Source: Cyanobacteriota bacterium (lineage in GTDB: Bacteria > Cyanobacteriota > Cyanobacteriia > PCC-6307 > Cyanobiaceae). From it: 64,000 nt of DNA. Under the pieces are notes generated by a model. It was not told the origin of the DNA and ran no database searches. It saw nothing but the letters and a program-made list of their open reading frames with translations. Positions 1,246-34,769 of this stretch are shown in pieces (the stretch's first letter is position 1; each line of letters begins with the position of its first letter). The stretch is from the NCBI GenBank assembly GCA_026389265.1, contig JAPLIE010000045.1, positions 1 through 64,000 of the forward strand, written 5' to 3'. Both the position numbers and the translations under genes were made by a program.

Positions 1246-1360
1246 AGCGGCAGCGTTAGCGGCCGCCACGATCCAGGCAGTACCGGCATCGCAAGGCAGG
1301 CGCTGCTGGGGGTGGGGACTTGGGGGCGTTGCTCGGGGTCACCTCTGGCTCCGTAAACTC

Positions 1361-1378
1361 AGTGAGCAAGCACTCACT
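1361..1378. promoter_or_regulatory. Palindromic TetR operator in front of the repressor gene
   Basis: AGTGAGCAAGCACTCACT: six-base arms AGTGAG/CTCACT around a six-base centre. It ends 15 bases before the proposed TTG start of the TetR gene. The same arms with a near-identical centre occur at 5001-5018 in front of the efflux genes, and these two are the only copies I noticed. That pairing fits autoregulation plus control of the pump by the same repressor. Binding is inferred. Confidence 0.75.
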
Positions 1379-1393
1379 TTCAAGGCCCGCTTC

Positions 1394-2098: not shown

Positions 2099-3716
2099 CG
2101 GCCAAAAAGAGCAAGCCCACCAGCCGGAACACATCGCCGTAGGCCAGCAGGGCCGCCTGGCGGTCCACCTGCTGGCTGAGCACCTGCAGGGCCTGGTCCG
2201 CCAGGGTGCCGCCAGTGCCGGAGCGGGAGGCGAGCCAGAACTGCAGTTCCACCAGCCGCTGCTGCAGCCGGGGATCGGTGATCGCCAGGGATTCCACCAG
2301 GTGGGCCCGGTGCACAGCCTGCTGGTGCTCCAGGGCCAGGGTGAGCACGGCGATGCCGAAGCTGCCCCCCAGCTGGCGGGTGAGGTTGTAGAAGCCGCTG
2401 CCGGCCCCCACATCCACCCTGGGCAGGGGGCCCAGGGTGGCCAGGCTGAGGGGCAGGAACATCACCACCGTGGTGATGCCCCGGAAGATCAGGGGCCACC
2501 AGAGAGCATCGGCGCCGGTATCGGGCCCGATCGTGCCCATCGCAAACATCGTGGCCACCATCCCCAGGGCCGCCGCGCCGATCAGCAGGCGGGGATCGAA
2601 GCGGCTCACCACCCGTCCCAGCAGGGCCATGGTGACGCCGGAGGCTAGGGCGCCCGGGAGGATCAGCATCCCGGTCTGGGTGGCGGTGTAGCCGAGCACC
2701 GTCTGGGCGAAGACGGGCACTACAAACACGGAGCCGTAGAGGCCCATGCCCAGCACCAGGGAGAAGGCGCTGCCGGCGGCCAGGGAGCGATGGCGCAGCA
2801 CCCGCAGATCCACCGCCGGGTTGCGCCGCCTGAGCTCCCACCACACGAACACCGGCAGGCTGATGGCCGCCAGCAGGGCCAGGTTGCGGATCAGGGCACT
2901 GTCAAACCAATCGAGTTGGTACCCCTGCTCCAGCACCACCTGAAGGCTGGCCAGGCAAAGGGTGAGCAGCGCGATGCCGGTCCAATCGACGCCGCCCCGT
3001 CCCAGCCCCCGCTGAACCCCGGCGGCCAGCTGGTCGTCGGAGCGATCGGGCTCCAGGAAGGCCAGGGCCATCAGCACCGTGAGCAGGCCGAAGGGCAGGT
3101 TGATGAAGAAGATCCAACGCCAGCCGAGGGTGTCGGTGAGCAGGCCACCGAGGGTGGGACCCAGGGCCGGGCCCACCAGCACCACCATGCCGAACACCGC
3201 CTGGGTGGTGGCCTGGAAGGCCGCCGGCACCGACTGGAACAGGATCGCCTGAGCCTTGGGCAGCAGCCCACCCCCGAGCAGTCCCTGCAAAATGCGCGCC
3301 ACCACCAGCACCGTGAGGTTGGGGGCCAGGCCGCAGAGCATCGAGGCGGCGGTGAAGCCCACCAGGCAGAAGATGAAATAGGTGCGCTGGCCGAAGACGC
3401 CGCTTAGCCAGGTGCTCAGCGGAATCATCACCACACTGGCCATGGCGTAACCGGTGACCACCCAGCCCACCTCGGCCAGGGTGGCGCCGAGACTGGCCTG
3501 GATGTGGATCAGGGCCACGTTGGTGATGCTGGTGTCGATGATCTCCAGCAGGGCGCCGATTGAGGCGGTGATCACCATGGCCCACTGGCGCGGGGTGAGG
3601 CCGGTGGGTTGGGAGCCCGGGGAATCGGGCGTCCCCGCCGAGGGCTGGCCGGGAGGACCGGACACGGCGGGGGAGCCGGGCGTCATGGTTGGTTTCGCCG
3701 GGGCTCCGGCCCTCAT
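2034..3716 (-). CDS. DHA2-family (EmrB/QacA-type) drug/proton antiporter
   Basis: Inner-membrane 14-helix major-facilitator exporter of 560 residues, probably joined through the HlyD partner to an outer-membrane channel for drug efflux. The first helix carries the DHA2 signature (IIDTSITNVAL, about residue 60), followed by repeated hydrophobic helices and the conserved loop GRVVSRFDPR in the second half. Its ATG overlaps the TGA of the upstream HlyD gene (ATGA), indicating translational coupling. It should be controlled by the operator at 5001-5018. An alternative ATG lies ten codons downstream. Confidence 0.9.
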   Translation of the reverse strand: MRAGAPAKPTMTPGSPAVSGPPGQPSAGTPDSPGSQPTGLTPRQWAMVITASIGALLEIIDTSITNVALIHIQASLGATLAEVGWVVTGYAMASVVMIPLSTWLSGVFGQRTYFIFCLVGFTAASMLCGLAPNLTVLVVARILQGLLGGGLLPKAQAILFQSVPAAFQATTQAVFGMVVLVGPALGPTLGGLLTDTLGWRWIFFINLPFGLLTVLMALAFLEPDRSDDQLAAGVQRGLGRGGVDWTGIALLTLCLASLQVVLEQGYQLDWFDSALIRNLALLAAISLPVFVWWELRRRNPAVDLRVLRHRSLAAGSAFSLVLGMGLYGSVFVVPVFAQTVLGYTATQTGMLILPGALASGVTMALLGRVVSRFDPRLLIGAAALGMVATMFAMGTIGPDTGADALWWPLIFRGITTVVMFLPLSLATLGPLPRVDVGAGSGFYNLTRQLGGSFGIAVLTLALEHQQAVHRAHLVESLAITDPRLQQRLVELQFWLASRSGTGGTLADQALQVLSQQVDRQAALLAYGDVFRLVGLLFLAVIPLVLLLGKPPAPAASPGRP

Positions 3717-4996
3717 GGCCTACGCACGCTCACCGTGGCCGAAAGGCCGGGCACCAGGTTCAGACCCTGGGTGTCGCGGGGGTCGAGGTCGATGCGGGCG
3801 GTGATGCGCTGCACCACCTTGGTGAAGTTGCCGGTGGCGTTGTCGGGGGGGAGCAGGGCGAAGCGGGAGCCAGCGGCGGGGGCCAAGCTGTTCACCTTGC
3901 CCCGCAGCACCTTGTTGGGGTAGGCGTCGATGCGCACCTCGGCGGCCTGGCCGGGCTTGAGGGCAGTGAGCTGGGTTTCCTTGAAGTTGGCCTCCACCCA
4001 GGGGTGGGTGTCGACCACGGTCATCAGGGGCTGGCCGGGCTGCACCTGGCGCCCGGGCTCGGCGTGGCGGGAACCAATCCGCCCGGCACTGGGGGCCGTG
4101 ATCCGGGTGTAGGAGAGGTCAAGCTGGGCTTCGGCGAAGGCGGCCTGGGCCTGCATCACCTTCGCCTGGGCGGCGGCAGCCTTCTGGCGATCCACGCCCA
4201 CGTCCTGGATTCGGGCCTGGGCGGTCTGGCGGCTGGCCTGGCTGTGGGTGAAATCGGCCTGAGCCTTGCGGTAGGTGCTCACCGCCCGTTCCGCCTCCTG
4301 GCGCGACACACCACCCTGCTGGGCCAGGCCCACCAGCCGCTGGGCATCGGCGGCGGCGCGGGCCAGTTCGCTGCTGGCCGATTGCTGGTCGGCCACGGCC
4401 ATCCCCTCCGCCGCCCGGGCGGTGCTCACCGAAGCCCCGGCCTGCACCGCCATCGCCTGGGCCTCGCGGGCCACCTGTTCCAGGTCGGCCCGGGCCTTGA
4501 ACAGCCGGGCGCGGGCGTCGCGGTCGTCGAGCTGAACCAGGGGCTGGCCCAGCTTCACCTCCTGGTTGTCCTCCACCAGCACGCGGGCGATGGTGCCCGG
4601 CACCCGGCTGGAGATCTCCGTGAGGTGGCCCTGGAGCTGGGCGTTATCGGTTGCCACCAGACCCCAGTGGGCCACCAGATAGGCCCCGCCACCGGCCAGG
4701 GCCGCCAGGCCCAGCAGGGGGGGCAGCCAGCGGTGGGACGAGGTCGGGGGCTTGGGGAGGGCCAGGGGGGTGTCGGCGTCCGCTTCAGCCAAGCGGGCCG
4801 GTGATCGGTCTGCTCCGTTCGGGCCAGCGGGGATGCCTTTGGATTCGCTGATGGCCGGGGCGCTGACCTCCCCAACTGCCGTCGGGCTGGCGGCAGGGGA
4901 GAGGTCCGACGATCCGTGTCCAGGTAGCGGGGGCGGTGGCGCCCCATCACGGGTGCTCGCAGGCGCCTGCGCATCGACCGAAGGGGCGGACGCCAT
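3713..4996 (-). CDS. HlyD/EmrA-family membrane fusion protein
   Basis: Periplasmic adaptor of the efflux pair. A proline-rich cytoplasmic N-terminus is followed by one membrane helix (about residues 65-85), a first lipoyl half (VPGTIARVLVEDNQEVKLGQ), a long alanine/glutamine-rich coiled-coil hairpin, the second lipoyl half (APSAGRIG) and a beta-barrel domain ending in the LVPGLSATVSV motif usual for EmrA. Start: an ATG at 5017 is also in frame, but its first codons would lie inside the palindrome at 5001-5018, so ATG 4996 is preferred. The gene overlaps the antiporter gene by four bases. Confidence 0.88.
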   Translation of the reverse strand: MASAPSVDAQAPASTRDGAPPPPLPGHGSSDLSPAASPTAVGEVSAPAISESKGIPAGPNGADRSPARLAEADADTPLALPKPPTSSHRWLPPLLGLAALAGGGAYLVAHWGLVATDNAQLQGHLTEISSRVPGTIARVLVEDNQEVKLGQPLVQLDDRDARARLFKARADLEQVAREAQAMAVQAGASVSTARAAEGMAVADQQSASSELARAAADAQRLVGLAQQGGVSRQEAERAVSTYRKAQADFTHSQASRQTAQARIQDVGVDRQKAAAAQAKVMQAQAAFAEAQLDLSYTRITAPSAGRIGSRHAEPGRQVQPGQPLMTVVDTHPWVEANFKETQLTALKPGQAAEVRIDAYPNKVLRGKVNSLAPAAGSRFALLPPDNATGNFTKVVQRITARIDLDPRDTQGLNLVPGLSATVSVRRP

Positions 4997-5000
4997 GGCA

Positions 5001-5018
5001 AGTGAGTAAGTACTCACT
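5001..5018. promoter_or_regulatory. Second palindromic TetR operator, in front of the efflux operon
   Basis: AGTGAGTAAGTACTCACT, a perfect palindrome with eight-base arms around a two-base centre. It differs from the site at 1361-1378 only at positions 7 and 11 (C to T). It sits directly at the start of the HlyD gene, where a bound repressor would block transcription or initiation, and also faces the divergent amidohydrolase remnant at 5149. Binding is inferred from the match. Confidence 0.75.
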
Positions 5019-5148
5019 TAGCGTAAACCCTGTCACCTTCAAGGGGCGATCCGTGGTCGACTTTTCTTGTCGGGAAACGAAGAAACCCCATCGCCCAGGT
5101 GACCGCCGCCGCCGGGCCACCTAAAACCCGAGCAGCCCACTGAATTTG

Positions 5149-7001
5149 ATGGTTTCTCCGCTGCCCCGATCCGTCGCCAGGAGGCGTGCCGCCAGGTCTG
5201 GCTCCCCCCTGATCGCCGCCGCTCTGCTGGCCGGAGCAGCGGCCTTGGCCGGACCCCTGCCGGCGGCGGTAGCGGCCCCCCCAGCCGCCGCAACACCAGC
5301 CACCCTCTACGCCGGCGGCCCGATCCTCACCATGACCGGTCCGCAGCCGGCCTATGCCGAGGCCCTGGTGGAGCGCGGCGGCCGCATTGTCTATGTGGGC
5401 CCCCTGGCCGGGGCGATTCGCGCGGCGGGGGGCGGGGCAAAGCGGGTGAACCTGGCCGGCCGGGCCCTGCTGCCCGGCTTCATCGATGCCCACGGCCACC
5501 TGCCCGATTACGTGGCCACCTGGGGCCGGCCCGACCTCAGCCCACCGCCGGTGGGCAGCACCCGCCGCATCGCCGACATCCAGGCCACGGTGCGCGCCTA
5601 CCTGGCCAGCCACCCCGCCCCGGCCGGCCAGCTGCAGTTCTTCATGGGCTACGACGACAGCCTGTTGGAGGAGAAGCGCCACCCCACCCGCGCCGACCTA
5701 TCCCCCAGCCCGATCTGGCCGAGAAGCTGCGCCGCTTCGATCAAGTGCAGAAATGGTGGGCCAGTTTCGGCATCACCACCGCTCAGGACGGGCTCAGCAA
5801 CCCCAGCAACGTCGACCTGCTGCGGGAGGCGGGCCGTCAGGGACGGCTGATCCTCGATGTGGTGAGTTATCCCTTCTTCCGGGTGCTGGGCGAACTGAAC
5901 AGCCTCGATGCGCGGGCCAGTAGCAGGGCCGTGATCCACACACCCGGGGGCGACCCACGGGCCGTCGCAAACGGCAAGGCCGCCTCTGCCAACGCTCCAG
6001 GGACACCTGCACCGATTAGCTCATTGGTGTCGAACGCCGGCCGTGAATTCGCCAGCGGCGCCGAAGCGGCCACGCCGCCACCAGCCGATGGGGTCACCTC
6101 CGCCAAGCTGGAGGTGGGGATCTACCGCAACCACCTCAAGATCGGCGGCATCAAGCTCACCGGCGATGGCTCACCCCAGGGCAAGACCGCCTACATGAGC
6201 CAGCCCTACACCTCGCCGCCGCCGGGCCAGAAGGCCGATTACCGCGCCTACGCGGTGATGAACCAGCAGGAGGTGAGCGATTGGGTGGCCTTCGGCTACC
6301 GCAACAACATCCAGATCATCACCCACACCAATGGTGATGCCGCCCTCGACCAGTTCCTGGTGGCGGTGCAGCAGGCCCGCGCCACCTATGGCGCCAAGGA
6401 TCTGCGCCCGGTGGCGATCCACGCCCAGCTGGCCCGCCATGACCAGGTGGACCGCATCAAGGCGCTGGGCATCGTGCCGAGCTTCTTCACCGCCCACACC
6501 TTCTTCTGGGGTGATTGGCACCGCCAGAGCTTCGGCGAGCAGCGGGCGGCGGGGATCAGTCCCACGGGCTACGCCTACGGCAAGGGCGTGATCTTCACCA
6601 ACCACAACGATGCGCCGGTGGTACCGCCAGACATGCTGCGCCTGGCCCAGACAGCCGTGGTGCGCACCAGCCGCAGCGGGTTTGTGCTGGGGCCGGCGGA
6701 GCGGGTGAGCCCCTATGTGGCGCTCAAGGCGATGACCGACTGGGCGGCCTATCAGTATTTCGAGGAGAAGAGCAAGGGCACGCTCGAGCCTGGGAAGCTT
6801 GCCGATCTGGTGATCCTGGAGCGCGATCCACTCCAGGTGGATCCCACCACGATCCGCACGATCAAGGTGGTGGAAACGATCAAGGAAGGGAAGCCCATCT
6901 TCCAGCTGGGGGTGGACAAGATCGATGTCGCTGCAGCCCAGGCGGCCAGTCGGGTGGCGCCCAATCCGGAGCTGGCCGAGCAGCGGATTCACCGGCATTG
7001 A
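5149..7001 (+). pseudogene. YtcJ-type amidohydrolase (copy 1), broken by an internal deletion and frame change
   Basis: Remnant of an exported amidohydrolase of the YtcJ/amidohydrolase_3 family. A hydrophobic signal peptide precedes the first metal motif DAHGHL (near 5487). Frame one runs to RHPTRADLS (near 5700); the protein then continues in another frame from PQPDLAEKLRRF. Compared with the paralogue at 17701, about 70 residues are absent exactly at this break, so one deletion of a length not divisible by three explains both changes. The downstream half is well preserved, with HTNGDAALD, the HAQ motif near 6420 and NHNDAPVVPP. A TTG directly before the ATG is an alternative start. Confidence 0.8.
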
Positions 7002-7318: not shown

Positions 7319-7389
7319 GGTGAGGCAAGCAAGCGAGTAGACGCTGCGGTCGCGCTCGGGGTAGGCCTGTTCGATGTGGGGGACACGGC

Positions 7390-7654
7390 CACCAGGCCCA
7401 TGGCCGAGCGGTTGCGGCTGATCTCCTCGATGGCGGCGCTGATCGCTTCCGGCGGCTGGCCGGGATTGAGGCGCTCCAGGGCGGCCCGTAGGCGCGGCAA
7501 CAGCACAACCTCAGAACGGTTGCGGCGGCCGAGACTGCCCCCCCGGCGCAAAGGTTTCCTCCAACCCGCCGGCCGTTTGCCAACCCAGCTCGGCCAGAAG
7601 GGCCAGGGCGGGCTGTTCCACCAGCTGGTCTTCGGTTTAGGGGATGGGGGTCAT
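7390..7654 (-). pseudogene. hsdR N-terminal fragment (type I restriction subunit), decayed
   Basis: Reading the minus strand from ATG 7654 gives, after an early TAA, a start typical of type I restriction R subunits (EDQLVEQPALALLAELGWQT). It then changes frame at a run of seven C (7538-7544, plus strand) and continues as SEVVLLPRLRAALERLNPG. After about 85 codons the similarity stops. The nuclease and helicase domains are missing. Its ATG overlaps the TGA of the ATPase gene, implying the two once shared an operon. Family assignment is by eye. Confidence 0.6.
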
Positions 7655-8940
7655 ACCGGTGGTGCGGCGTACCAGAGACTGGCGAGTGGCAGAGCCCAGA
7701 TCGGGCGGCCGGCAACAGAGCCCATGGGCAGGGTCTGGATGCCGTCGTAGAGGATCACGCCACCGAGGAAGCGATCACCGGCCTGGCTGGCGAGGCGGCG
7801 CAGGCCGGCACATTGGGCCGCCTGAACGCTGGCCGCAGCCTTAACCTCCACGCCAACAAGCTGGCCATGGCCATTGGCGATCACGACATCCACCTCCAGT
7901 TGATCCTTGTCGCGATACATGAAGAGTTCGTAGCTATCTTCACTCCAGCTGGCCAGACGTAGTAATTCAGCATAGACATAGCACTCGAGCGCTGGACCAA
8001 AAGCGGTCCGGTTCGTCATGAGTCCAGCCAGCCTGAGCCCCAAGAGCGCACTCAATAACCCGGAATCGAGAAACTGGAGTTTGGGGGTCTTGACCACCCG
8101 CGCCAGAGCATTGGCCGACCAGGCCGGTACACGCCGCACCAGAAAGAGCTGCTCCAGCAGGGTGATGTAGCGCGTCACCGTCTTGCCATCGAGGCCGATG
8201 CGGGCACCCAGCTGGGTGTAGTTGCAAAGCTGGCCACACACTTGAGCGAGCGCCGTGAGCAGCTGGGGAAGGCTCTGCAACTTATCGACGGAGGCGATCT
8301 CGCGAACGTCGCGTTGAAGGATGGCGTTGAGATAGCTGTGCGCCCACGCCTGACGGCGGCTTTCGCTGCTGCGATGCAACGCCTCGGGATAGCCGCCGGT
8401 GAGCACCCGCCTCTCCAGGGCCTCGCCCACCTGGGCAGCTGCCTGCTCGGGCGGTGGCGAGAGTGGCGCCGTCTCGGCCGCCAGGGCAGAGAACAGGGCA
8501 TCGATCCAGGCGCTGGGCTGGCCGGCTAGTTCGCAACCCGCAAGCGGCAGCAGGGACAGCACCTCCAGGCGCCCGGCCAACGAGTCGGCCACACGGGGCA
8601 GGGCCATCACATCGGCGGAGCCGGTGAGCAGGAAGCGGCCGGGCCGACGCCGATCATCCACCGCCAGCTTGATCGCCAAGAGCAGTTCGGGGACCCGCTG
8701 CACCTCATCGATCACGGCCCCATCAAGGCGACGGATGAAGCCTTGCGGATCCTCGCGGGCGGCGGCGCAGGTGGTGGCGTCGTCGAGGGTGAGGTAAGGG
8801 CGCTGCTCGGTGGCGAATTGCCGCACCAGGGTGGTCTTGCCGCTCTGGCGAGGCCCGTTGAGCAGCACCACGGGCGTATCGGCCAGGCTCTCCTGCAGAC
8901 GCCTGACGATGCCGCGGGGCCAGACCGACTGCGAGAGCAT
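7651..8940 (-). CDS. AAA ATPase with C-terminal DUF4143/nuclease-like domain (ATPase 1)
   Basis: A 429-residue P-loop ATPase of the family common in defence and toxin-antitoxin islands; biochemical role unknown. Walker A GPRQSGKTTL at residues 29-38, Walker B AVIDEVQR near 75 and sensor LLTGSAD near 105 are intact. The C-terminal DUF4143 region contains FLDSGLLSALLG and a PD-(D/E)XK-like pattern (LEVDVVI then VGVEVKA). The gene is full length and appears intact although both restriction genes around it are ruined. Three tandem 22-bp repeats lie just upstream (8982-9047). A related, more divergent copy is at 33325. Confidence 0.85.
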   Translation of the reverse strand: MLSQSVWPRGIVRRLQESLADTPVVLLNGPRQSGKTTLVRQFATEQRPYLTLDDATTCAAAREDPQGFIRRLDGAVIDEVQRVPELLLAIKLAVDDRRRPGRFLLTGSADVMALPRVADSLAGRLEVLSLLPLAGCELAGQPSAWIDALFSALAAETAPLSPPPEQAAAQVGEALERRVLTGGYPEALHRSSESRRQAWAHSYLNAILQRDVREIASVDKLQSLPQLLTALAQVCGQLCNYTQLGARIGLDGKTVTRYITLLEQLFLVRRVPAWSANALARVVKTPKLQFLDSGLLSALLGLRLAGLMTNRTAFGPALECYVYAELLRLASWSEDSYELFMYRDKDQLEVDVVIANGHGQLVGVEVKAAASVQAAQCAGLRRLASQAGDRFLGGVILYDGIQTLPMGSVAGRPIWALPLASLWYAAPPV

Positions 8941-8981
8941 GGATCCGCGGCAGCTGATCTGGAGGCTAGCAGCGGCTGATC

Positions 8982-9047
8982 CGGAATCCGGAGCCGTCCA
9001 ACTCGGAATCTGATGGCGGTCAAGTCGGAATCAACTGGCGGCTGATC
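8982..9047 (-). repeat. Three 22-bp direct repeats upstream of ATPase 1
   Basis: CGGAATC recurs at 8982, 9004 and 9026 on the plus strand, an exact 22-base period. On the coding (minus) strand every unit ends GATTCCG, and the middle unit reads CATCAGATTCCG. The array ends 41 bases before the ATPase start. The second DUF4143 ATPase has a comparable three-unit array at 33231-33299. The rest of 8941-9268 shows no gene. Confidence 0.7.
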
Positions 9048-9268
9048 GGGAGCAGGCAGGACCAACAGGCTGTTGGGCAATGGGTGGCATTGGGGTTTGT
9101 GCAAGCAGCCCTCTCGATGGGGATCCAGGGCCACCGGCACCACGTCCTGACCACGGGCGGTGAGAGTGCTGCGCATGGCGTGAATGATCAAAGCTCCCCG
9201 ATTGCAGCTCGGCGCATCACAAGCGACATCAAACGATGCCTGCGCTGTCGCGACTCCTGGGCGGAACA

Positions 9269-9463
9269 ATGCGCACCACCGTGACGCTCGACGATGAACT
9301 GCTGGCCAAGGCCGAGCAGCTGTGCGGAGACCTGGAACGGAGCGCCCTGTTGAAGGAAGCTCTGCGGGCTCTGGTGCAGCGCGAGAGCGCCAAGCGACTG
9401 GCGGCCCTGAGCGGCAGTGAACCCGCGCTGGAAACGATCCCCCGCCGGCAGAGCGCGGCGTGA
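9269..9463 (+). CDS. vapB: VapB-family antitoxin
   Basis: A 64-residue ribbon-helix-helix antitoxin beginning MRTTVTLDDELLAKAEQL, the usual VapB start; the middle (ALLKEALRALVQRESAKRLA) also fits the family. ATG 9269 is chosen because it gives the family N-terminus. It overlaps the remnant toxin start by GTGA at 9460. Because that toxin is broken, this antitoxin has no functional partner in the window and may act only on its own promoter or on a related toxin elsewhere. Confidence 0.8.
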   Translation: MRTTVTLDDELLAKAEQLCGDLERSALLKEALRALVQRESAKRLAALSGSEPALETIPRRQSAA

Positions 9464-9700
9464 TCCTGATCGACACCCGCCACGCCCCTGCAGGAAGGCG
9501 AGGTGCTGATCCATCCCTGGGTGATCGGCGAACTGGCCTGCGGCAATCTGCGCAACCGATCTCAAGTACTGGATCTGTTGCAGGGCCTGCAGGCAGCGAC
9601 GGTGGCCAGCGATGCGGAAGTGTTGCTGCTGATTGAGCGCGAGCGGCTGATGGGCCGAGGTATTGGCTATGTCGATGTCCACTACGAGGTCGCCTTCTAG
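9460..9700 (+). pseudogene. VapC PIN-domain toxin, deleted and truncated
   Basis: The GTG at 9460 opens with VILIDTRHA, like a VapC N-terminus (first catalytic Asp), but the frame then departs. The match resumes in another frame at LQEGEVLIHPWVIGELACGN (from about 9490), so some 20 codons are missing. The protein then reads well as far as GIGYVDVH and stops shortly afterwards, losing the C-terminal strand. It abuts the truncated hsdS on the other strand, so both probably lost their ends at the same breakpoint (about 9680-9765). Confidence 0.75.
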
Positions 9701-9987
9701 AGCTGCCGTAGTAGACGTTTGAGCCGTTTAGGCGGCTTGCGCGGCCATGGCTCTCGTTTTGCCAGGACTCCCTCGTCTATCGGAAATCCAACAACAAGCT
9801 GGCTAAGCCGGACAACCTTATAGCCGGACAAGTCCTGGCTTGCCACTCTTTTTTTGAACTTGTTTGCCTGCTCAACCAGTCCATCTCTCATTGTCATCGA
9901 GAGGACCTGGTATTTTCCTTGACCCGCTTTTACTGAAGGCGCCTTGTGGATCAGGCTTTCCAAGGACACAACATTTATCTGGTTCAT
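9697..9987 (-). pseudogene. hsdS: hsdS N-terminal fragment (type I specificity subunit)
   Basis: A frame of 96 residues starting at ATG 9987, overlapping the hsdM TGA (ATGA). Residues 8-70 match the start of a specificity subunit target-recognition domain (SLIHKAPSVKAGQGKYQVLS, QLVVGFPIDEGVLA). From there it becomes a basic, unrelated tail and stops. The second recognition domain and the coiled coils are absent. A separate hsdS tail-like fragment exists at 33051-33221. Confidence 0.75.
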
Positions 9988-11838
9988 CGCAGCATCCCCT
10001 CCAGATCCTCGATCCCCTGCAGGATCTCCTGCTCGATCGTCCGCAGTTCCGCCAGGATCTCCAACGGTGGGCGGTGCTCCACCTCGTCGTGGATGAGCTC
10101 CTTGTAGCGGTTGAGGCTGAGGTCGTAGCCCTGCTCGGCAATCTCCGCCTTGGGCACGCAGAAGCTTTGGGCGCTGCGTTCCCGCTCTCTCTCTGAATCC
10201 TTGCGTTGGCGCCAGCGATCCAGGCAGTCGGGCAGGTTGTTCTTCTCGTGCTCGCCCTCGGCCAGGGCGTCCTTGGGAGCAGGCCCGAGCTTCTCCAGCG
10301 GCAGCAGCGGATTGCGCTTGTCGTCGAGGCTCCAGCCGTCGGCGGTCATGTCGTAGAACCACACCTGATCGGTGCCGCCACGGCCGGTTTTGGTGAAGAA
10401 CAGGATCGCAGTGCTCACTCCTGCATAGGGGCGGAACACTCCGCTCGGCAGCGACACCACGCCTTCGAGGAAATGGTCTTCTACCAGGGTGCGGCGCAGC
10501 TCCTTGTGGGCCTTGCTGGATCCGAAGAGCACGCCATCTGGCACGATCACCGCCGCCCGCCCGCCGGGTTTGAGCAGCTGCAGGAAGAGCGCCATGAACA
10601 GCAGCTCGGTCTTTTTGGTCTTCACCACCCGCTGCAGCTTGCCGCTCGTGCTCTCGTAATCCAGCGAACCGGCAAAGGGTGGATTGGCCAGGACCAAGGT
10701 GTACTTGTTTTCCTCGCTGGCGCTGTCTTCCGAGAGCGAATCGCGGTAGCTCACATCAGGGTTCTCCACCCCGTGCAGGAGCATGTTCATAGCGCCGATG
10801 CGCAGCATCGTGTTGTCGAAATCAAAGCCATGGAACAGGCCATGGTTGAAGTGCTCGCGCAGCTCCGGATCGCTGAGCACCTCGGGGTGGTGCTTCGCGT
10901 AGGTATTCACCCACCGCCACCGGGAAGCCGCATGTGCCGCAGGCCGGATCCACCATCACATCGCGTGGGGTGGGCTCGGTCATGGCCACCATCAGCTCGA
11001 TGATGTGGCGGGGCGTGCGGAACTGGCCGTTGGTGCCGGCGGTGGCCAGCTTGCCGAGCATGTACTCGTAGATATCGCCCTTGGTGTCGCGGTCCTCCAT
11101 CGGCACCGCATCGAGCAGCTCCACCACCTTGGTGAGCAGCCCCGGCGTGGGGATCGTGAAGCGCGCATCACGCATGTGGGTGGCGTAAGCCGATTCCTCA
11201 CCGCCCAGCTCCCGCAGGAACGGGAACACCCGCTCGCCCACCACCTTGTACATCGAGGCGGCCTCGCCCAGCTCCTTGAAGCGGCTCCACCGCAGCTCTT
11301 GGCTGTCGTCGGGAAAGATGTGGCGGCGCATTGGCTGCCCCGAACGCTGGCTGCGCCGCTCCTCAAGAGTTTCCAGCTCATCGAGCCGGCGAATGAATAG
11401 CACGTAAGTGAGCTGCTCCAGCACCTCCAACGGGTTGGCGATGCCGCCGCTCCAGAAGGCATCCCAGATCCGGTCGATCTGATTGCGGAGCTCACCGGTA
11501 AGTACCGAGGCCGCCGTGGTGCCGGGGGCGATGGCGGATTGGGGGGCTGGCGCGGCTGAGCCGTTGCCGCTGCGGCGGGTGCGGGTGCCTGCTGCACTAG
11601 CAGCCGTTCGCGAAGGCGGGTCGATCCCCGGCGCTCTCAGGCCACCGCCGGGGCCTTTCACACCCTCGGCGGCACCCAGGGCCACCACCTGGCCCCTGAT
11701 CTCCTTCAGATCCTCATCGCTGATGGGCTCTCCCGTCTCGCGCTCCAGGGCAGCGCGAATCTCGTCGTTTGTGATCCGGCTGCCGTCCTCCGGGATCAGA
11801 GCGATCAGGTCGTTGACGAGGTCGGCGAGGTCGGGCAT
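9984..11838 (-). pseudogene. hsdM: hsdM (type I DNA methyltransferase subunit), frameshifted
   Basis: The N-terminal part (11838 to about 10895) carries the HsdM helical domain (IDRIWDAFWSGG, LEQLTYVLFIRRLDELE) and methyltransferase motif I, DPACGTCGF, where the usual second glycine and following leucine are changed. At about 10893 one extra base moves the frame; removing it restores GEYLREHHPEVLSDP. The rest to 9984 is intact, with catalytic motif IV NPPF near 10680 and the C-terminal region that contacts HsdS. The mixture of motif change and frameshift points to a dead gene rather than only a sequencing slip. Confidence 0.85.
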
Positions 11839-12192
11839 CGGAGCGGGCTGGAGACGCTGGGCTGGGGATCAGGGAAGCAGAGCCTGGGACTGGCGAGAGG
11901 ACCTGAACCTGGGTGATCTCACGATGGCTTGGCGGGCATGAAACAGATCAGTCGCCGAGCGAAAGACCAGATCGGGGTGTGTTGGTGACCATTTCCGACT
12001 TCACGTGACACCAGTTTGCGTAGTTCTACAGCGAGGCAGCGGCAGATGCAGTGCGATCTCCATGCCCGTGCTGGCGTGGCTATGCACCAACCGCATAGTT
12101 TTTTGATCGGGACTCTGCGAGGACTGGCGGATTCTCATCGGCCTAACCGAGCTGGCGAGCTATCATTACATGTAACCTCAGCGCAAGCCACC
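11839..12192. other. Gene-free stretch with candidate mazEF-type operator
   Basis: No convincing coding frame was seen. The perfect palindrome TTACATGTAA at 12166-12175 lies 17 bases before the antitoxin start and is a plausible site for autoregulation by the antitoxin or the toxin-antitoxin complex. The rest is probably the decayed upstream flank of hsdM. Confidence 0.5.
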
Positions 12193-12456
12193 ATGGAAGC
12201 GGAAGCCACTCCAAGCGCCAGCCCCGACGACATCCGCCGCGCAGCCACCCGCCGCAAGGTGCGCGCACACCGGCAGCGATTGCGGGCCAAGGGCATGCGG
12301 CCGATCCAGATCTGGGTGCCGGATGTGCATTCACCTGAGTTTGCTGCCGAGGCCCGGCGGCAATGTCTGTTGGCCAATGCCAGCCCCGAGGAGGCAGAGA
12401 TCCAGGCCTTCATCGACTCGGTGTACGAGTGGCCTGACGACGAGTACAGCCAGTGA
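12193..12456 (+). CDS. MazE-family (DUF3018-like) antitoxin
   Basis: An 87-residue charged protein with a basic core (RRKVRAHRQRLRAKGMRPIQ) followed by IWVPDVHSPEFAAEARRQ, a pattern of antitoxins annotated as MazE-family/DUF3018, and an acidic C-terminus (YEWPDDEY) suited to toxin binding. ATG 12193 is chosen because the family begins near here and the palindrome lies just upstream; the frame remains open further 5'. It overlaps the toxin start by GTGA. It looks intact, unlike the neighbouring vapBC pair. Confidence 0.78.
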   Translation: MEAEATPSASPDDIRRAATRRKVRAHRQRLRAKGMRPIQIWVPDVHSPEFAAEARRQCLLANASPEEAEIQAFIDSVYEWPDDEYSQ

Positions 12457-12782
12457 AGCGCGGTGAGCTCTGGACCATGGCCGGCGGCTCCGGCTATGCC
12501 AGCAAGCCCCGCCCTGTGGTGATTGTTCAGGACGACGCCTTTACCGCCCGCGACTCCGTGACGGTGTGCCTGATCACGACTGATCCGTCTGATCTGCTGG
12601 TCTTTCGCGTCCCCGTCGAGCCCACAACGGAGAACGGTCTGCGAGCCGCCAGCCGCCTGATGGTCGACAAGGTCACCACCGTGCCCAAAAGCCGCTTGGG
12701 CCAACGCATCGGCCGCCTAGCCGATGACGACCTGCTGCGCCTCAATCGCTCGTTGCTGGTGTTTCTAGGCCTGGCCCGCTGA
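12453..12782 (+). CDS. MazF/PemK-family toxin (endoribonuclease)
   Basis: A 109-residue toxin expected to cut mRNA. The family landmarks are present: MKRGELWTM at the start, KPRPVVIVQDD near residue 18, then VCLITTDPSD and the C-terminal LMVDKVTTVPKSRLGQRIG containing the conserved D/K pair and the Ser/Thr region. The GTG start at 12453 overlaps the antitoxin stop, typical of such operons. Length is normal and no lesion was seen. Confidence 0.88.
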   Translation: MKRGELWTMAGGSGYASKPRPVVIVQDDAFTARDSVTVCLITTDPSDLLVFRVPVEPTTENGLRAASRLMVDKVTTVPKSRLGQRIGRLADDDLLRLNRSLLVFLGLAR

Positions 12783-12800
12783 GCGCGGATCAGCTCAGCC

Positions 12801-14771
12801 TCACAGCCTAAACATCACCTGGGAAATCACCACCCAGGCGTTCTTGTCGCCGAACACGTCATAGGTGGTGAGTTTGTAATTGCCCTCCAGGCCCAGCTGC
12901 AGCCAGGGATTCACATCCCAGAGCACGTTGGCGAAGATGCCGCTGTTGACCTGCAGGCCGAACAGCCCGGAGTCCTGGGCATTGTCGATGCCATAGCCGA
13001 GGTTGAGGCGCAGGTTGTCGGCCACATACACATAGAACTGGCCCCAGCCGCCGGCGGTGGGCACGGCCTGGTTGGTGGCGCGGTTGTAGGTCTGGAGGAT
13101 GCCGGCCATGTATTCGCCCAACCCCTGGCCGGTGTAGAGCTCGCCGCTGAGGCCGAAGCGGCGGCCCAGGGCGATCTGCCCATCGATGGCGGCCCCCCAG
13201 ACGTTCACCGTGCTGCGATCGGACACCAGGGTGAGCGGATCGGTGGGGCGGATGTTGTCGAGCACCCGCAGCTGGCCCACGATCCCGGACACCCCCAGCT
13301 CCACCGGCCGCAGACTGCGGCCACCGGCACGGTCGGCGTAGGCGCCGAAACCGAAGTTCAGCCGCGCCTCCAGGTTGGGCCAGCCGTTGTCCTCCACGAT
13401 CTCCTGACCCTGGAGATTGGCCAAATCCACGTTGCTGGGCAGGGCGGTGGTGACCGGCGAGGAGGCCGCCAGCTGCACCACCCCACCAAAACCAGGGCCC
13501 GCCTCAAAGGTGCGCTCCACCCGGAACTGGGGCCGATAGGCGCCGGGGTTGCCGGTGGCGGCCAACTTGCCGTTGGGCAGGGTGTCCGGGTCTCGGGGGG
13601 CGAACACATCGAAGTTCTGGCCGGCGGCCACCCGCCAGGCGCCATTGCCGATTTCGCCGTAAGCCACCACCGGCGTGAAGCTGTAGCCCTCGGCCAGCAG
13701 GTTGTCCTGCAGCCAGAAGATGGCAAAGGCGCCGGGGGTCCAGGAGCCCCACTTCGGCCCGCGGAAGGCCGCATACACCATGCTCTGCTGGGCCGAGAGG
13801 TCGTAGGAGGCGGCCGGATCCTTCGGGCTCACGATCAGGGGCTGGCCCGGGTTGAAGGTGTAACGACTGCTGGAGAAGCCCAGCAGCTTGGCCTCGGCCC
13901 AGAGGCGCAGGGTGGCGTCGCCGGCCTGGAGGGCGAAGCCCTTGCCGGGGGTGTAGGTGGCCGTTGATGCCGGTGCGGTGGGAGCGCCGGCAGAGGCTGG
14001 AGCGCTCAGGGTGCTGGGGATGCCTTCAGCCGCGGCGGTTGCGGGGGGGGCTGGAGCGCTGGGTGTGGCGGCCACCGGGCCGGGGGCCGGAGCGGTGGAG
14101 CCCGGAGCCGTGGAACCCGGAGCCGCTGCAGGCGCCGTAACACCGGCGGCGGGGGTGATGGTGGCGGAAGGCGCTGGGGCTGATGCAGTTGCAGGGGCGG
14201 CGGATTGGGAAGCGGCCGCAATGGGCAGGGCCCCACCAGCAGCGAGTGCGGCGGCGGTGGGAGCGCTGGAGATGGCAGCGCCTGGAATGGCAGCACCAGG
14301 GGTGGCGGACTGGCTGGTGAGCTGCTGGCGTAGCTGGGCCAGGTCGGCGGCGAGGGTGTCCTGGCGGGTGGTTTCGGCGGCCAGTTGGCTCTGCTGGGCT
14401 GCGATCCGCTGGCGCGAGGCGGCCAGTTCCTGCTCCAGTCGCTCCAATCGGCTCAGGGCATCGCCGGGGGTGCGGCAGGCGGGGGCGGCGGACAGCTTCG
14501 CCGGCAGAGCCGGATCGGCCCGCAGGAGCTCGGCCGGCGTCGTGGTGGCAGGTAAACCCAGGGCGTGGCGGCACCCGGGCACCGCCAGGCTGGCGGCCAT
14601 TCCCGGCGGCTCAGGTGCGTTGGCCCGGGCGGGGGGAAGCAGCGCGATCGCCCCGCCTCCCGCCAGCAGCAGGGGGAGCAGAAACGGACTAGGCCGGCAC
14701 TGTTGAAGCAGACCGTGTAGGGACCACGAGCCAAGGGGAAACACCAGGGCAGTGCGGGCCAGGTTCAACAC
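12801..14771 (-). CDS. Outer-membrane beta-barrel protein with coiled coil and Ala/Pro linker (DcaP/porin-like)
   Basis: A 656-residue exported protein. An N-terminal hydrophobic segment is followed by a coiled coil (about residues 105-150, ERLEQELAASRQRIAAQQSQ), a long low-complexity Ala/Pro/Thr/Ser linker (about 155-270) and a beta-rich barrel to the C-terminus. The barrel resembles porins of the DcaP/FlxA-like group: YTFNPGQPLI, AAFRGPKWG, RVAAGQNFDVFAPRDP, and a terminal strand ending in FRL. It probably forms a pore for small solutes. The substrate is unknown. The exact start is uncertain. Confidence 0.7.
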   Translation of the reverse strand: MLNLARTALVFPLGSWSLHGLLQQCRPSPFLLPLLLAGGGAIALLPPARANAPEPPGMAASLAVPGCRHALGLPATTTPAELLRADPALPAKLSAAPACRTPGDALSRLERLEQELAASRQRIAAQQSQLAAETTRQDTLAADLAQLRQQLTSQSATPGAAIPGAAISSAPTAAALAAGGALPIAAASQSAAPATASAPAPSATITPAAGVTAPAAAPGSTAPGSTAPAPGPVAATPSAPAPPATAAAEGIPSTLSAPASAGAPTAPASTATYTPGKGFALQAGDATLRLWAEAKLLGFSSSRYTFNPGQPLIVSPKDPAASYDLSAQQSMVYAAFRGPKWGSWTPGAFAIFWLQDNLLAEGYSFTPVVAYGEIGNGAWRVAAGQNFDVFAPRDPDTLPNGKLAATGNPGAYRPQFRVERTFEAGPGFGGVVQLAASSPVTTALPSNVDLANLQGQEIVEDNGWPNLEARLNFGFGAYADRAGGRSLRPVELGVSGIVGQLRVLDNIRPTDPLTLVSDRSTVNVWGAAIDGQIALGRRFGLSGELYTGQGLGEYMAGILQTYNRATNQAVPTAGGWGQFYVYVADNLRLNLGYGIDNAQDSGLFGLQVNSGIFANVLWDVNPWLQLGLEGNYKLTTYDVFGDKNAWVVISQVMFRL

Positions 14772-15219: not shown

Positions 15220-16437
15220 ATGTATCTTTTGGCACCGATATTGAGCCTTAACCGCCGGCGCCGTCATCGCCTCCAGTCGTTGCTGATCGCCCCATGGGCT
15301 CTGGCTGTCTTGGCGATGGCGCCAGAGCTGGTCAGGGCCGCAACGCCGCCGGCTGGGGTTAAGGCCGGTGGGGCCAAGACCGGTGGGATCAGGACCGTTT
15401 TCACCGGTGATGTGATCAACGGCAAGAAGGTGGTGAGTTCACTCAATACCGACGACCTGGAGCCCGGCCGCAAACACCTGCTTTATTTCCAGGGTGTTCA
15501 GATGGCCACGGGGCAGTATTGGTATGTCTCAGTGATCGTGGCCAAGGGGATCCGGCCCGGCAAGCGTCTCACCCTAACCAGTGGTGTCCATGGCGATGAG
15601 ATGAGTTCGGTGCACACCGTCCAGACGATCATGGGTCGCCTCAAGCCGGCTGAAATGACAGGTACCGTGATGGCGGTTCTCGACATTGCCCGCCCGGCGG
15701 TGGAGAGCATGCAGCGGCGCTGGCCGAGTATGGGCCGGGGCCAGGAGTTGACCGACATGAACCGCGAGTGGCCCGGCAACGAACAGGGCATCGGTGCCGC
15801 CAGTCGCCAGGCCGGCCTGGTGTTCAATCGGCTGCTCAGGCCCAATACCGATCTGGCCATTGACTTCCATACGGGCACCACGGGCATCGATGCTGCCGCC
15901 TTTCACATCGGCGACATGCGCATCCCGGAGGTCAAGACGATGATGATGCTCTATCCCGTGCCGCTGATTTGGGACAATCCCGTGTATCCCAGTGTTCTGC
16001 ACAACGCATTCATCAAAGCCGGCATTCCCTGTTTCACTCCCGAGATTGGCCCGGCGCGGCGGCTCGATCTGGACATGATTCCTCTGTTCGTGGATGGCAC
16101 GCTGAATGTCTTGAAGCACTATGGCGTGATTCCTGGCCCCATCGGGCGCACTGCCATCGACGCCAATGTGTTGATCGGTCAGAACGTTTATACCGTCGTC
16201 AGTAGCCAGGGAGGCTTCATCGAATGGCTGGTGAAAATCACCGACAACGTGAGGGCTGGTCAAAAGCTGGCGATTCAGCGCAACGCCTTTGGTGAGGTGC
16301 TGGCTGAATACACCAGCCCCGTCCAGGGCCGGATCTCTGCTCTGCGCAGCGACGCCACATCGGAGCCTGGTAATGTGCTGGCGTTCATTCTGTCCACCTC
16401 AGCCCCAAGTTCTGGAGCGGTTCCCTATGCAGAATAG
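15220..16437 (+). CDS. Exported succinylglutamate desuccinylase/aspartoacylase-family protein (M14-like)
   Basis: A 405-residue zinc-dependent hydrolase family member. A signal peptide or anchor lies at about residues 18-40. Zinc and catalytic signatures are clear: SGVHGDEMS (His and Glu ligands, near 127) and DFHTGT (second His, near 213), with ARPAVESMQRRWP and DMNREWPG in between. The C-terminal beta domain (YTSPVQGRISALR) is typical of the group. It removes an acyl group from an unknown amide substrate. Because it appears exported, a role on external or periplasmic N-acyl compounds is more likely than arginine catabolism. Intact. Confidence 0.8.
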   Translation: MYLLAPILSLNRRRRHRLQSLLIAPWALAVLAMAPELVRAATPPAGVKAGGAKTGGIRTVFTGDVINGKKVVSSLNTDDLEPGRKHLLYFQGVQMATGQYWYVSVIVAKGIRPGKRLTLTSGVHGDEMSSVHTVQTIMGRLKPAEMTGTVMAVLDIARPAVESMQRRWPSMGRGQELTDMNREWPGNEQGIGAASRQAGLVFNRLLRPNTDLAIDFHTGTTGIDAAAFHIGDMRIPEVKTMMMLYPVPLIWDNPVYPSVLHNAFIKAGIPCFTPEIGPARRLDLDMIPLFVDGTLNVLKHYGVIPGPIGRTAIDANVLIGQNVYTVVSSQGGFIEWLVKITDNVRAGQKLAIQRNAFGEVLAEYTSPVQGRISALRSDATSEPGNVLAFILSTSAPSSGAVPYAE

Positions 16438-16515: not shown

Positions 16516-16614
16516 ACTGTGGCATGTGCTCCAGGGCAGGCCTATCTTCTATGCGCCACCCATGGTTTGCATGGACACCATCTGGTCTGCATGAAAACAA
16601 ACTGGTCGCTTTCG

Positions 16615-17652
16615 ATGAAGCCCTTGCTGCAGACGATGCCGAATCCTTGTTCCCAAACTGCTGCCCCGGTCCGAAGATGTGGCCCATCTGGGGGGGTGGC
16701 CCTTGGTCTCGCGGGCTTGGTTTTGGGGTTCCTTCCAGCCCCGCAGGCCCTGGCAACGGAGCTTCCATTGCTCCCGTCAGCACCCGGGGCCGCCGAAATC
16801 TCCGTAAGCGGCCAGGGCGTTGCGGCGGTTCAAGCCAAACAACCCATGATCGCCCAGGCCCCGGGCCCGGCCACTGGAAGCGGCCAAGGGCAGGAAACAC
16901 CCCAGGAGCTCCGCACCGAGGAGGCCGGCCTGGCCAAGCAACTGGCCAACCCGGTGGCCTCGCTGATCAGCGTGCCCTTCCAGTTCAACTACGACCGTGG
17001 CATCGGCGTTCAGGAGAACATCCAGCGGGCCACCCTCAACATCCAGCCGGTGGTGCCCTTCAAGCTCTCGGCCAACTGGAACCTGATCTCCCGCACGATC
17101 CTGCCGGTGGTGAACTTCCAAGGCGCGGCCGGGGCGGAAACCGGCCAGCTCAATTTCGGTGACACCGTGCAAAGCCTGTTCTTCTCCCCCGCCAACCCCG
17201 GCCCCAGGGGCGTGATCTGGGGCGTCGGCCCGGTGGCCCTGCTGCCCACCGCCACCGGCCAACTCAGCGGCATCCACCAATGGGGCCTTGGACCCACCGG
17301 CGTGGCTCTGGTGCAGCGGGGCCCCTGGACCGTGGGCGCCCTGGCCAACCACCTCTGGAGCGTGGCCAACAACGGCTCCAATAGCAATGTGAATGCCACC
17401 TTTCTGCAGCCCTTCCTGAGCTACACCACCCCAACCGCCTGGACCATCAGCCTCAACACCGAATCCTCCTACGACTGGGCCGCCAACCGGTGGGCCGTGC
17501 CGATCAATCTTCTGGTGGGCAAGGTGACCAAGGTGGGCAACCAGCTCCTCTCTGTGGGAGCGGGCGTGCGCTATTGGGTCGATGGACCCGCTAGCGGCCC
17601 CCACGGCTGGGGAGCCCGCCTGGTGGCCACCCTGCTCTTTCCCACCCGCTGA
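16615..17652 (+). CDS. Outer-membrane transporter-like beta-barrel protein
   Basis: About 345 residues. A signal peptide (VALGLAGLVLGFLPAPQALA) is followed by a variable Gln/Pro/Gly region and then a beta-rich domain (LISVPFQFNYDRGIG, NWNLISRTILPVVNFQG, VGPVALLPTATGQ) like the predicted outer-membrane transporter family related to MetA of phenol degradation. The start is uncertain: ATGs at 16591, 16615 and 16636 all precede the signal peptide. Only 48 bases separate it from the second amidohydrolase, so the two may have been co-transcribed. Confidence 0.72.
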   Translation: MKPLLQTMPNPCSQTAAPVRRCGPSGGVALGLAGLVLGFLPAPQALATELPLLPSAPGAAEISVSGQGVAAVQAKQPMIAQAPGPATGSGQGQETPQELRTEEAGLAKQLANPVASLISVPFQFNYDRGIGVQENIQRATLNIQPVVPFKLSANWNLISRTILPVVNFQGAAGAETGQLNFGDTVQSLFFSPANPGPRGVIWGVGPVALLPTATGQLSGIHQWGLGPTGVALVQRGPWTVGALANHLWSVANNGSNSNVNATFLQPFLSYTTPTAWTISLNTESSYDWAANRWAVPINLLVGKVTKVGNQLLSVGAGVRYWVDGPASGPHGWGARLVATLLFPTR

Positions 17653-17700: not shown

Positions 17701-19433
17701 ATGAACCCCAAAGCCCCCCTGGTTGTCCCTGGCCTTCGGGCCGCCGGCCTTGGCCTGGCCTTCGGCCTGATCGGTGCCACCGCCACCCCGGCGGGAGCGG
17801 CACCGCTGCAGCAGCCCGCCGCCACCCTGTATCGCGGCGGCGACATCCTCACCATGGCGGGGCCCAAGCCCGCCTACGCCGAGGCGCTGGTGGAGAAGGG
17901 CGGGCGCATCCTTTATGTGGGGCCCCTGGCCGGGGCGATCAAGGCGGCCGGTGGCGGCGCCCGCCAGGTGAACCTCACCGGCCGCACCCTGCTGCCGGGC
18001 TTCATCGATGCCCATGGCCACCTGGTGCTGGCCAGCCACACGCTGCTCAACGCCGACCTGATCGGCGTGAAGAGCATCCCCGAACTGCTCGGGCGCATGA
18101 AGGCCCATGCCGCCACCTTGCCGGAGGGCGTGTGGGTGGAGGGCCTGGGCTACCGGGCTGAACAGCTCGCCGAAAACCGTCACCCCACCAAGGAGGAGCT
18201 CGACAGCGTGAGCACCAGCCGGGCGGTATTCGTGCAGGACGGCTCCGGCCACCAGGGTTCGATCAATTCCGTGCTGCTCAAGCAAATGGGCTGGAGCGCC
18301 AGCAGCAAGGATCCAGCCGGGGGGGTGATCTCCCGCAAACCGGGCAGCAGCGAGCCCAGCGGCCACATCGCTGAAGCGCCGGTGTTTGCGGTGCTGGCGG
18401 CCAAGGCGCCCCTCACCCCAGCCCAGATTCGCCTCGGGGTGGCCAAGGCCGTGGCCCTCTGGACGGCCAACGGTCAAACCACGGCCTCCGAGATGGGTTT
18501 TGGCCTCAGCGATGACGACATCGACGTGGCCCGGCAGATGCTCGATGAGAAGCTGCTGCCGATCGACCTGCTGCTCTATGTGAAGCAGTCCTTCCTGGAG
18601 CAGGCCAAGGCGGGCCGCAGTGCCGTGATGGCCCAATACGCCGATCCCGCATCGCGAGCGCCGCGGGTGGATGGCGATGGGCGCTATCTCAACCGGGTGC
18701 GGTTGGCAGGGGCAAAATTCTGGCTGGACGGCAGCATGGATAACGCCTTCATGTCGCAGCCCTACACCAACAATCCGCCGGGAAATACGGAGAAAAACTT
18801 CCGCGGCCTGGCCGTGGATCCCCAGGCCGCCGTGGAGGCCACCGTGGCCACCTATTGGAAGAGCAACCGCCAGGTGGCCGGCCACAGCATCGGCGACCAG
18901 GCGGTGGATAACTTCCTCACGGCGATCGAGCCGGGGCGGCTGGTTCAGTGCAGCGGGCCGGCATCCCCTGGACCATGCACCACGACATGCCCGCCGGCGT
19001 GAGCCCCAGCCTGATTTATGCCCTCTGGAACATCGTGAACCGCACCACCAAATCCGGGGTGGTGCTGGCACCACAGGAAAAGGTGAGCGCCTACGACGGC
19101 CTGCGGGCCATCACGATCAACGGTGCCTACCAGTTCCACGAGGAGAAAAGCAAGGGTTCGCTAGAGCCCGGCAAGCTGGCCGACCTGGTGGTGCTGAGCG
19201 CCAATCCCTTGAAGGTGGACCCCCTTTCCATCAAGGACATCCAGGTGCTGGAAACGATCAAGGAGGGCACCAGCCTCTATCGCAATCCCGCCCTCAGCGC
19301 CGGCGGGGCCACCACCGCAGCGGCACCGATCAACGAGAAGGACAACTGCCTGGTGCCCCACGACCACCCCCAGAAGCCCCTCAATCCGGCCCAGCAGGCC
19401 ACCATGGATCGGCTGTTGGCGCCAAGGCCCTGA
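17701..19433 (+). pseudogene. YtcJ-type amidohydrolase (copy 2), broken by an internal deletion and frame change
   Basis: Paralogue of 5149-7001. Signal peptide, DAHGHL, the RHPT...GSGHQGS region and LAGAKFWLDGSMDNAF are present in the first frame up to DNFLTAIEPG (about 18935). The sequence then resumes in another frame at RAGIPWTMHHDMP and runs to 19433. Compared with copy 1, about 65 residues are missing at the break, including the strand with the metal-binding HAQ motif. So copy 2 keeps what copy 1 lost and lacks what copy 1 kept. Not expected to be active. Confidence 0.8.
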
Positions 19434-19532: not shown

Positions 19533-20591
19533 ATGCTCACCATCCCGGATCGTTGGGGGCCGTGTTGCCTCAGCGAACCGCGACTGCCCTTTCTCAACCT
19601 GCCCGGAACCTCGGCCCAGCTCGGTGACCCGGTGCAGGTGGCCGAGAGGCTGGCCACCCTGCTCCCCGTGCGCAGTTGTGATACCCAGGAGCGTCCCTCC
19701 CCGGCGCGGCCGTTCCGCTGTCACACCGGTGGCCTACGGCTCGGGCCCCTCAGCCTGGTGGCGATCTGGGGACCGGGGCTGCGGGGCGAGGTGGACGGCA
19801 TCGCGCAGGCCAGCTTCATCCTTCCCTACCGGGGCCAGGGGCACTTCCGGCTCGGCCGCAGCAGCCTCCGCAACCTCGCCGGCCGGACCCTGCTCTATCT
19901 GCCCCCAGAACCCTGGCGCACCAGCAACGACGCCATGGGGGGTATCACGATCCGGCTCGATCCGGCCCTGATCCGCCAAGTGGGACTCACCATGGCCGGA
20001 CCCCGGGCCGCCCCGGAAGCCTGGCAGGCTCTGGCCACCCATCCGCTCGTGGTGGAGCTGGAGCAGCCCTCCAACCCGGTGCGCTTCGAGCGGCTCTACC
20101 GGTTGATGCTGTTCATCGATGGCCTGCTGCTCCGCCAAGGAGGTGTGTCGGATCTGCTGCGGCTCGACGATCTGCTGCTGCGCCAGATCGTGGAGGTGCT
20201 GGCCCCGGCCCTGCTGGCCGATCGCGCCGCCCCCGATCCGGAGGTTTCCGACTGTGCCATCGATGCGCTGGTGGATTGGATCCATGCCCACTGCCACGAG
20301 CCGATCAGCCTCTCGGAACTGGAACAGCGCTCCCATTACTCGCGCCGCAGTCTGCAGTACGCCTTCAAAGCCAGGTTCGGCTGCGGTCCGATGCAATACC
20401 TGCGGCGCCAAAGGCTCTGGCTGGCCCGCCGCCGGCTGGAGGACCCCGGGCCGGAGTGCAACGTGAGCAGCATCGCCAGCGCCTGTGGCTATCTCAGCCT
20501 GGCCAGCTTCAGTCGGGATTTCCAGCGGCGCTTTGGAACTTCCCCCTCCAACATGCTGGCCCAGCGGCGATGGTCCTGGAAGGGCAAGTAG
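19533..20591 (+). CDS. AraC-family transcriptional regulator
   Basis: A 352-residue regulator. The C-terminal 100 residues carry the double helix-turn-helix of AraC/XylS proteins (ISLSELEQRSHYSRRSLQYA; then VSSIASACGYLSLASFSRDF). The N-terminal part resembles the AraC_binding_2/RipA-like sensory region (LPYRGQGHFRLG, LLYLPPEPWR). ATG 19533 is used. It lies upstream of the arginase gene on the same strand with a 74-base gap, so it may control that gene, but no binding site could be defined. Confidence 0.88.
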   Translation: MLTIPDRWGPCCLSEPRLPFLNLPGTSAQLGDPVQVAERLATLLPVRSCDTQERPSPARPFRCHTGGLRLGPLSLVAIWGPGLRGEVDGIAQASFILPYRGQGHFRLGRSSLRNLAGRTLLYLPPEPWRTSNDAMGGITIRLDPALIRQVGLTMAGPRAAPEAWQALATHPLVVELEQPSNPVRFERLYRLMLFIDGLLLRQGGVSDLLRLDDLLLRQIVEVLAPALLADRAAPDPEVSDCAIDALVDWIHAHCHEPISLSELEQRSHYSRRSLQYAFKARFGCGPMQYLRRQRLWLARRRLEDPGPECNVSSIASACGYLSLASFSRDFQRRFGTSPSNMLAQRRWSWKGK

Positions 20592-34593: not shown

Positions 34594-34769
34594 GCAGGCC
34601 CAGGCGATCGCTCGCGATCTTCTACGGCTCCCGGGCCCTAGGGCGGCACCGTCCCGCCTCCGATATCGACCTCACCCTGATCGGCCCCGCGATCAGCGCC
34701 GCCTCCCTGGCCCGCATCGCGCGTGCCGGCGTGGAGCTGTATCGCCCCCGGATGCGTCAAACTCACCCC
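34590..34769 (+). pseudogene. Partial nucleotidyltransferase core fused ahead of the MNT gene
   Basis: In frame with the following gene and overlapping the ATPase stop, this segment encodes LAIFYGSRALGRHRPASDID, a canonical minimal nucleotidyltransferase core (GSRA...SDID), then stops resembling the family after about 45 residues. Only the first half of a domain is present. Either it is a remnant of another MNT gene or it forms an N-terminal extension of the next protein. Confidence 0.55.

Follow-up and report, generated by a model that had tools for sequence, protein, structure and literature searches.

Two private out-of-frame losses in the paired YtcJ-like amidohydrolase genes of a cyanobacterial genome: assembly fault or very young deletions

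Introduction

YtcJ-like amidohydrolases carry the Amidohydro_3 domain (Pfam PF07969) and have a solved relative, 3ICJ. A described protein with this domain is metalloBSH of Bilophila wadsworthia, which, according to a 2026 preprint, combines it with a signal peptide and a predicted dinuclear metal site (PMC13081902). Many putative bacterial pseudogenes are attributed in one study to assembly errors (PMC11017572).

Here we consider two Amidohydro_3 genes, copy 1 and copy 2, each split by an out-of-frame loss, in a window of 64,000 nucleotides (the whole stretch of DNA that was analysed). The window lies on contig C42 of a cyanobacterial genome (3.49 Mb in 214 contigs, 95.4% complete) which appears to be a metagenome bin. 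We hypothesise that the 184 bp lost from copy 2 and the 202 bp lost from copy 1 are absent only from the assembly, a proposition that we regard as evenly poised between true and false and that was missing from the initial annotation of this DNA. The choice between an assembly fault and a young real deletion is nearly balanced, slightly towards the assembly fault.

Two paralogues split at different places

Copy 2 is a YtcJ-like Amidohydro_3 gene on the plus strand (17701-19433), which changes from frame 1 to frame 3 at a joint where, by comparison with intact relatives, 184 bp or about 61 residues are absent out of frame (Table 1). The initial annotation had put a loss of some 65 residues around an HAQ motif near 18935, and this holds in the refined form given here. 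Its paralogue copy 1 (5146-7001, plus strand) is without 202 bp, also out of frame, at a different place, so that the annotation was right in describing two paralogues with independent losses that are not multiples of three. It was also right that each copy keeps what the other has lost: the QHAQFLRPDQ segment falls inside the stretch missing from copy 2 and its counterpart IHAQLARHDQV is retained by copy 1, and copy 2 keeps the stretch whose loss has cost copy 1 its HASGH segment.

Table 1. Coordinates of the two split genes and of their neighbours in the window.
Feature	Position	Strand	Remarks
Copy 1, upstream part	5146..5699	+	Frame 1; PF07969 profile 3-84
Copy 1, joint	5699..5700		202 bp of relatives missing; 0 bp homology; contig G052:C146 ends exactly here
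Copy 1, downstream part	5700..7001	+	Frame 3, keeps IHAQLARHD; PF07969 profile 167-472
Outer-membrane-porin-like gene between the copies	12801..14771	-	By eye; no Pfam/NCBIfam match at E 0.001
AstE/AspA-type deacylase gene upstream of copy 2	15220..16437	+	PF24827
Beta-barrel-like gene directly upstream of copy 2	16519..17652	+	By eye; no Pfam/NCBIfam match at E 0.001
Copy 2, upstream part	17701..18930	+	410 codons, frame 1; PF07969 profile 3-296
Copy 2, joint	18930..18931		184 bp of relatives missing; 1 bp homology at the joint
Copy 2, downstream part	18931..19433	+	Frame 3, HHDMPAG to C-terminus, open; PF07969 profile 362-472
Copy 2, out-of-frame tail of the 433-codon frame 1 ORF	18931..19002	+	ORF list
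AraC-family regulator downstream of copy 2	19533..20591	+	PF12833

All four gene parts pass the curated PF07969 cut-off of 29.7 bits, those of copy 2 with 139.8 and 88.6 bits. The upstream part of copy 2, which is 92% identical to its orthologue in the related genome G023, has a signal-peptide-like start (by eye), an IDAHGH motif, an SGHQGSINS segment, GHSIGD, and AGAKFWLDGS, with the lysine kept (AGVKFW in relatives); the listed ORF of the downstream part begins at a GTG at 18948. The metal-site set of HxH, Lys, two His and Asp, given for BwBSH1 in the preprint (PMC13081902) and mapped to copy 2 by eye, is incomplete in copy 2, from which the QHAQ segment, present in the intact orthologues, is gone. 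This segment aligns with IEHA of 3icj, and the G023 orthologue matches 3icj_A with an E value of 4.5e-26. Copy 2 is the orthologue of an intact, conserved, YtcJ-like metal amidohydrolase that is probably exported. One open frame across the domain is found in neither window copy, both being split, and a whole enzyme could come from neither gene as assembled.

The annotation had suggested that the complementary breaks reflect exchange between the copies. The two do lie 12 kb apart in the same orientation, as gene conversion or recombination between them might favour, but their longest identical run is 17 bp, no tract of near-identity ends at a break, amino-acid identity in the matching parts is 40-56%, and the two parts flanking each break both match the orthologues of that same copy. 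We therefore consider exchange highly improbable, and the annotation's further idea that recombination might restore a full gene looks implausible at this level of identity. An even slighter chance attaches to the notion that the deletions are real and that the fragments pair into a split two-subunit hydrolase, which is conceivable in that the upstream part of copy 2 and the downstream part of copy 1 overlap and together span the whole domain. A third, distant paralogue with an open frame is found on contig C89 (37% identity).

The neighbours of the two genes, namely the AstE/AspA-type deacylase, the two barrel-like proteins and the AraC-family regulator, suggest a cluster that takes up an amide substrate and hydrolyses it outside the cytoplasm. 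Several differences from relatives are seen along the contig. About 5.4 kb between the copies (7330-12800) are absent from G001 and G005, and G018 is without them up to about 12160; by eye they hold a DUF4143-like ATPase, type I restriction methylase ORFs and a toxin-antitoxin-like pair. Near 10893 there is a frame change in the putative methylase-like gene of type I, assigned to the minus strand; compared with G023, which has a single ORF there (561-878 codons class), the window carries one extra base. G023 itself lacks about 3.8 kb corresponding to 1245-5052 (named by eye as a TetR-like regulator, an MFS transporter and an HlyD-like protein) and, from its deacylase gene, about 405 bp (15680-16083, a multiple of three) that are whole in the window and in G055 (L068). 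A gap of 129 bp relative to G018 (L131), with 0 bp homology, falls at 34612|34613 and takes away the beginning of an ORF that by eye is nucleotidyltransferase-like; the frame of G018 is itself interrupted by a stop at this point, and no genome other than G018 has a clean match across it. A mobile origin was rejected, as plasmids gave two records covering 9-10% of the query and viral contigs one distant relative at 35%.

Both losses are private to one genome

The relatives were drawn from 42 same-genus genomes, the window's own included. The 202 bp of copy 1 are present at exactly that length in all nine relatives that match both sides of its break (G060, G023, G055, G018, G054, G061, G056, G058 and G001), and the 184 bp of copy 2 at exactly that length in all six that match both sides of the other (G055, G023, G061, G056, G001 and G060); the latter six carry both copies. 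Since each stretch is kept at one length in every relative that spans it, both losses are private to the window's genome among the genomes compared. The intact copies that the annotation had proposed to seek do exist, as the translated orthologues have an open frame in 9/9 cases for copy 1 and 5/5 for copy 2 (a set that leaves out G061; in G060, copy 2 begins at the contig edge). The shortened forms that the annotation had named as counting against its reading were seen in no relative among the 42 genomes, of which G005 and G018 are uninformative for copy 2, since their contigs stop short of the break, and G052 for copy 1, since its contig stops at the break; a relative with one intact and one decayed copy was not seen among the genus genomes compared. 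The closest named records encoding copy 2 (L040-L044 and L068) are titled Cyanobium, Synechococcus, Synechococcaceae or cyanobacterium bins, mostly MAGs, and their names suggest that they come from lakes.

Selection on the remaining codons

The remaining codons of both copies contain no stop. Against relatives, copy 2 has a dN/dS of 0.14-0.18 and copy 1 one of 0.18-0.30, compared with 0.15-0.23 and 0.15-0.34, respectively, among the intact relatives. Of the changes private to the window, two are nonsynonymous in each copy, against 13 synonymous ones in copy 2 and five in copy 1. Selection on these codons is purifying, as in intact relatives, and the losses, if real, are very young. Looked at as pseudogenes, the copies have a frame-breaking lesion relative to intact orthologues and show neither relaxed selection nor further lesions, although a very young pseudogene would look identical.

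These data bear on the other explanation offered by the annotation, decay after redundancy, by which the copies do the same job and one was lost and then the other. Membership of the same family and the same cluster would suit such a history, but six relatives keep both copies, with open frames in the translated orthologues and purifying selection on both in those compared, and neither window copy has decayed further, so that we hold it to be very unlikely.

Assembly fault or recent deletion

The assembly reading rests on several of these results taken together: one length in six of six and nine of nine relatives with the shortened form in none, no decay in the remaining codons, joints with 1 bp (copy 2) and 0 bp (copy 1) of homology, and the coincidence of a contig end with the copy 1 break. 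The last of these concerns contig G052:C146 (3412 bp), which stops exactly at 5699; its last 141 bases (L262:1761-1901) are identical to window 5559-5699 and the preceding base differs, hinting that the window's genome and G052 may come from one assembly. In a survey of contig ends in the window's genome (exact matches of at least 25 bp, 58 of 214 contigs, with ten cut right ends and the wholly N contigs left out), the commonest exact overlap was likewise 141 (nine of 25 records, five pairs of ends), the other 16 being 30 to 140 long. The default largest k of MEGAHIT is 141. From the commonest overlap and the end of G052:C146 we conclude that the assembly probably used a k of 141 and that its graph probably broke at 5699.

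A fault of this kind might arise as follows. The amidohydrolase cluster would be unusually alike among related species, so that the de Bruijn graph of a mixed sample would break there; pieces of the graph would then be butted together with a short middle piece left out, giving the 184-bp and 202-bp gaps, and the joints would have been made by the assembly or by later processing. In keeping with this, G055 is 93% identical to the window in copy 2 and, as read from its longer matches, mostly 70-83% identical over window 24-64 kb, with a few stretches at 88-91%, which makes shared k-mers likelier in the cluster. A hard-to-sequence stretch was rejected as the cause, since the lost stretches, tested in G055 only, are ordinary in G+C and folding energy, a result that weighs against the assembly reading.

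Other results temper the assembly reading. A k=141 graph alone is unable to join sequences that share only 0-1 bp. The N runs in 833 kb of the genome consist of one 72,000-base block and eight wholly N contigs, which we do not take for scaffold gaps, and overlapping contig ends were left unmerged, so that no scaffolding step is visible, which counts against a fault. Other relatives share exact runs of 92-130 bp with the window inside the 141-bp block that ends at 5699, so that the block is conserved and a long identical run there is less surprising; the coincidence was spotted after the fact, no similar one was found for the copy 2 joint, and contig ends inside these genes are, by a rough hand estimate, not clearly commoner than genome fragmentation predicts.

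We also took ORFs from 800 kb of G022, a genome in one contig, as references for the same 833 kb (58 contigs, C42 included, 87 kb N). Matches at 55% amino-acid identity or above were found for 96 genes, three of which were dropped because another reference frame matched better, and N-terminally partial matches were taken as over-extended starts. None of the 93 conserved genes left (27,089 aa), some of which sit on the window's own contig, has a clear out-of-frame loss of at least 100 bp, in a screen that can miss some; this counts against a uniform assembly fault, as at this contig's rate of 2-3 per 52 kb the chance of finding none would be 0.04-0.009. A second match in another frame was seen for 11 of the 93. 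For seven of them a reference frame with a better score accounts for it (upstream over-extension of ORFs), and the two kinds of split found there recur in G001 and G018. Of the remaining four, r77 changes frame at a weak second match (44%) and is some 50 nt short, r910 and r1138 change frame and lose nothing, and r1257 has the look of tandem paralogues. The reference C-terminus is unreached in four (r77, r1052, r2041 and r1138). A scan of the window's contig against relatives, which is not fully sensitive, flagged copy 2 and a weak place at 27233 and missed copy 1. Many stretches of the window are missing from G023; at first look we took them for assembly noise, but several are multiples of three and they were not used as evidence.

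The main competitor is a real and very recent loss, in which two independent illegitimate deletions inactivated both amidohydrolases of the cluster, whose substrate had perhaps ceased to be important. We rate this as a serious contender, with a likelihood somewhat short of even. It accords with both members of one cluster being affected, with the further clean 129-bp difference on the same contig, by which an accessory nucleotidyltransferase-like gene loses its start, with the clean result for all 93 conserved genes and with the unscaffolded look of the contigs, whose junctions should then have read support. Nor were the lost stretches found elsewhere in the genome, parts of which read N (the 202-bp query recovered its target in three of three other genomes used as a control; the 184-bp query had no such control). 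It sits less well with the lack of relaxed selection, with joints of so little homology and with the fact that one edge coincides to the base with a contig end of 141 bp.

Comparison with known systems

Complementary broken paralogues invite explanation by exchange or redundancy, and the present case is a caution, as relatives show the two losses to be separate and confined to a single genome, with one ending at an apparent graph break point. Should the losses be real, a picocyanobacterial hydrolase cluster would have lost two genes very recently.

The artefactual pseudogenes of assemblies resemble the two genes in having a frame-breaking lesion that is not common to relatives; the cases that the study speaks of are frameshifts and internal stops (PMC11017572), and it is we who extend the comparison to a likely metagenome assembly and to losses of some 200 bp. 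The points of likeness to metalloBSH (PMC13081902) are the Amidohydro_3 domain, the signal peptide and the dinuclear metal site, which is predicted for metalloBSH, but metalloBSH has 945 residues and an extra C-terminal domain, and the likeness implies no bile-salt activity for the window enzymes. The likeness to the YtcJ-like amidohydrolases is that all four gene parts match PF07969, and the difference is that in the window an out-of-frame loss splits each copy.
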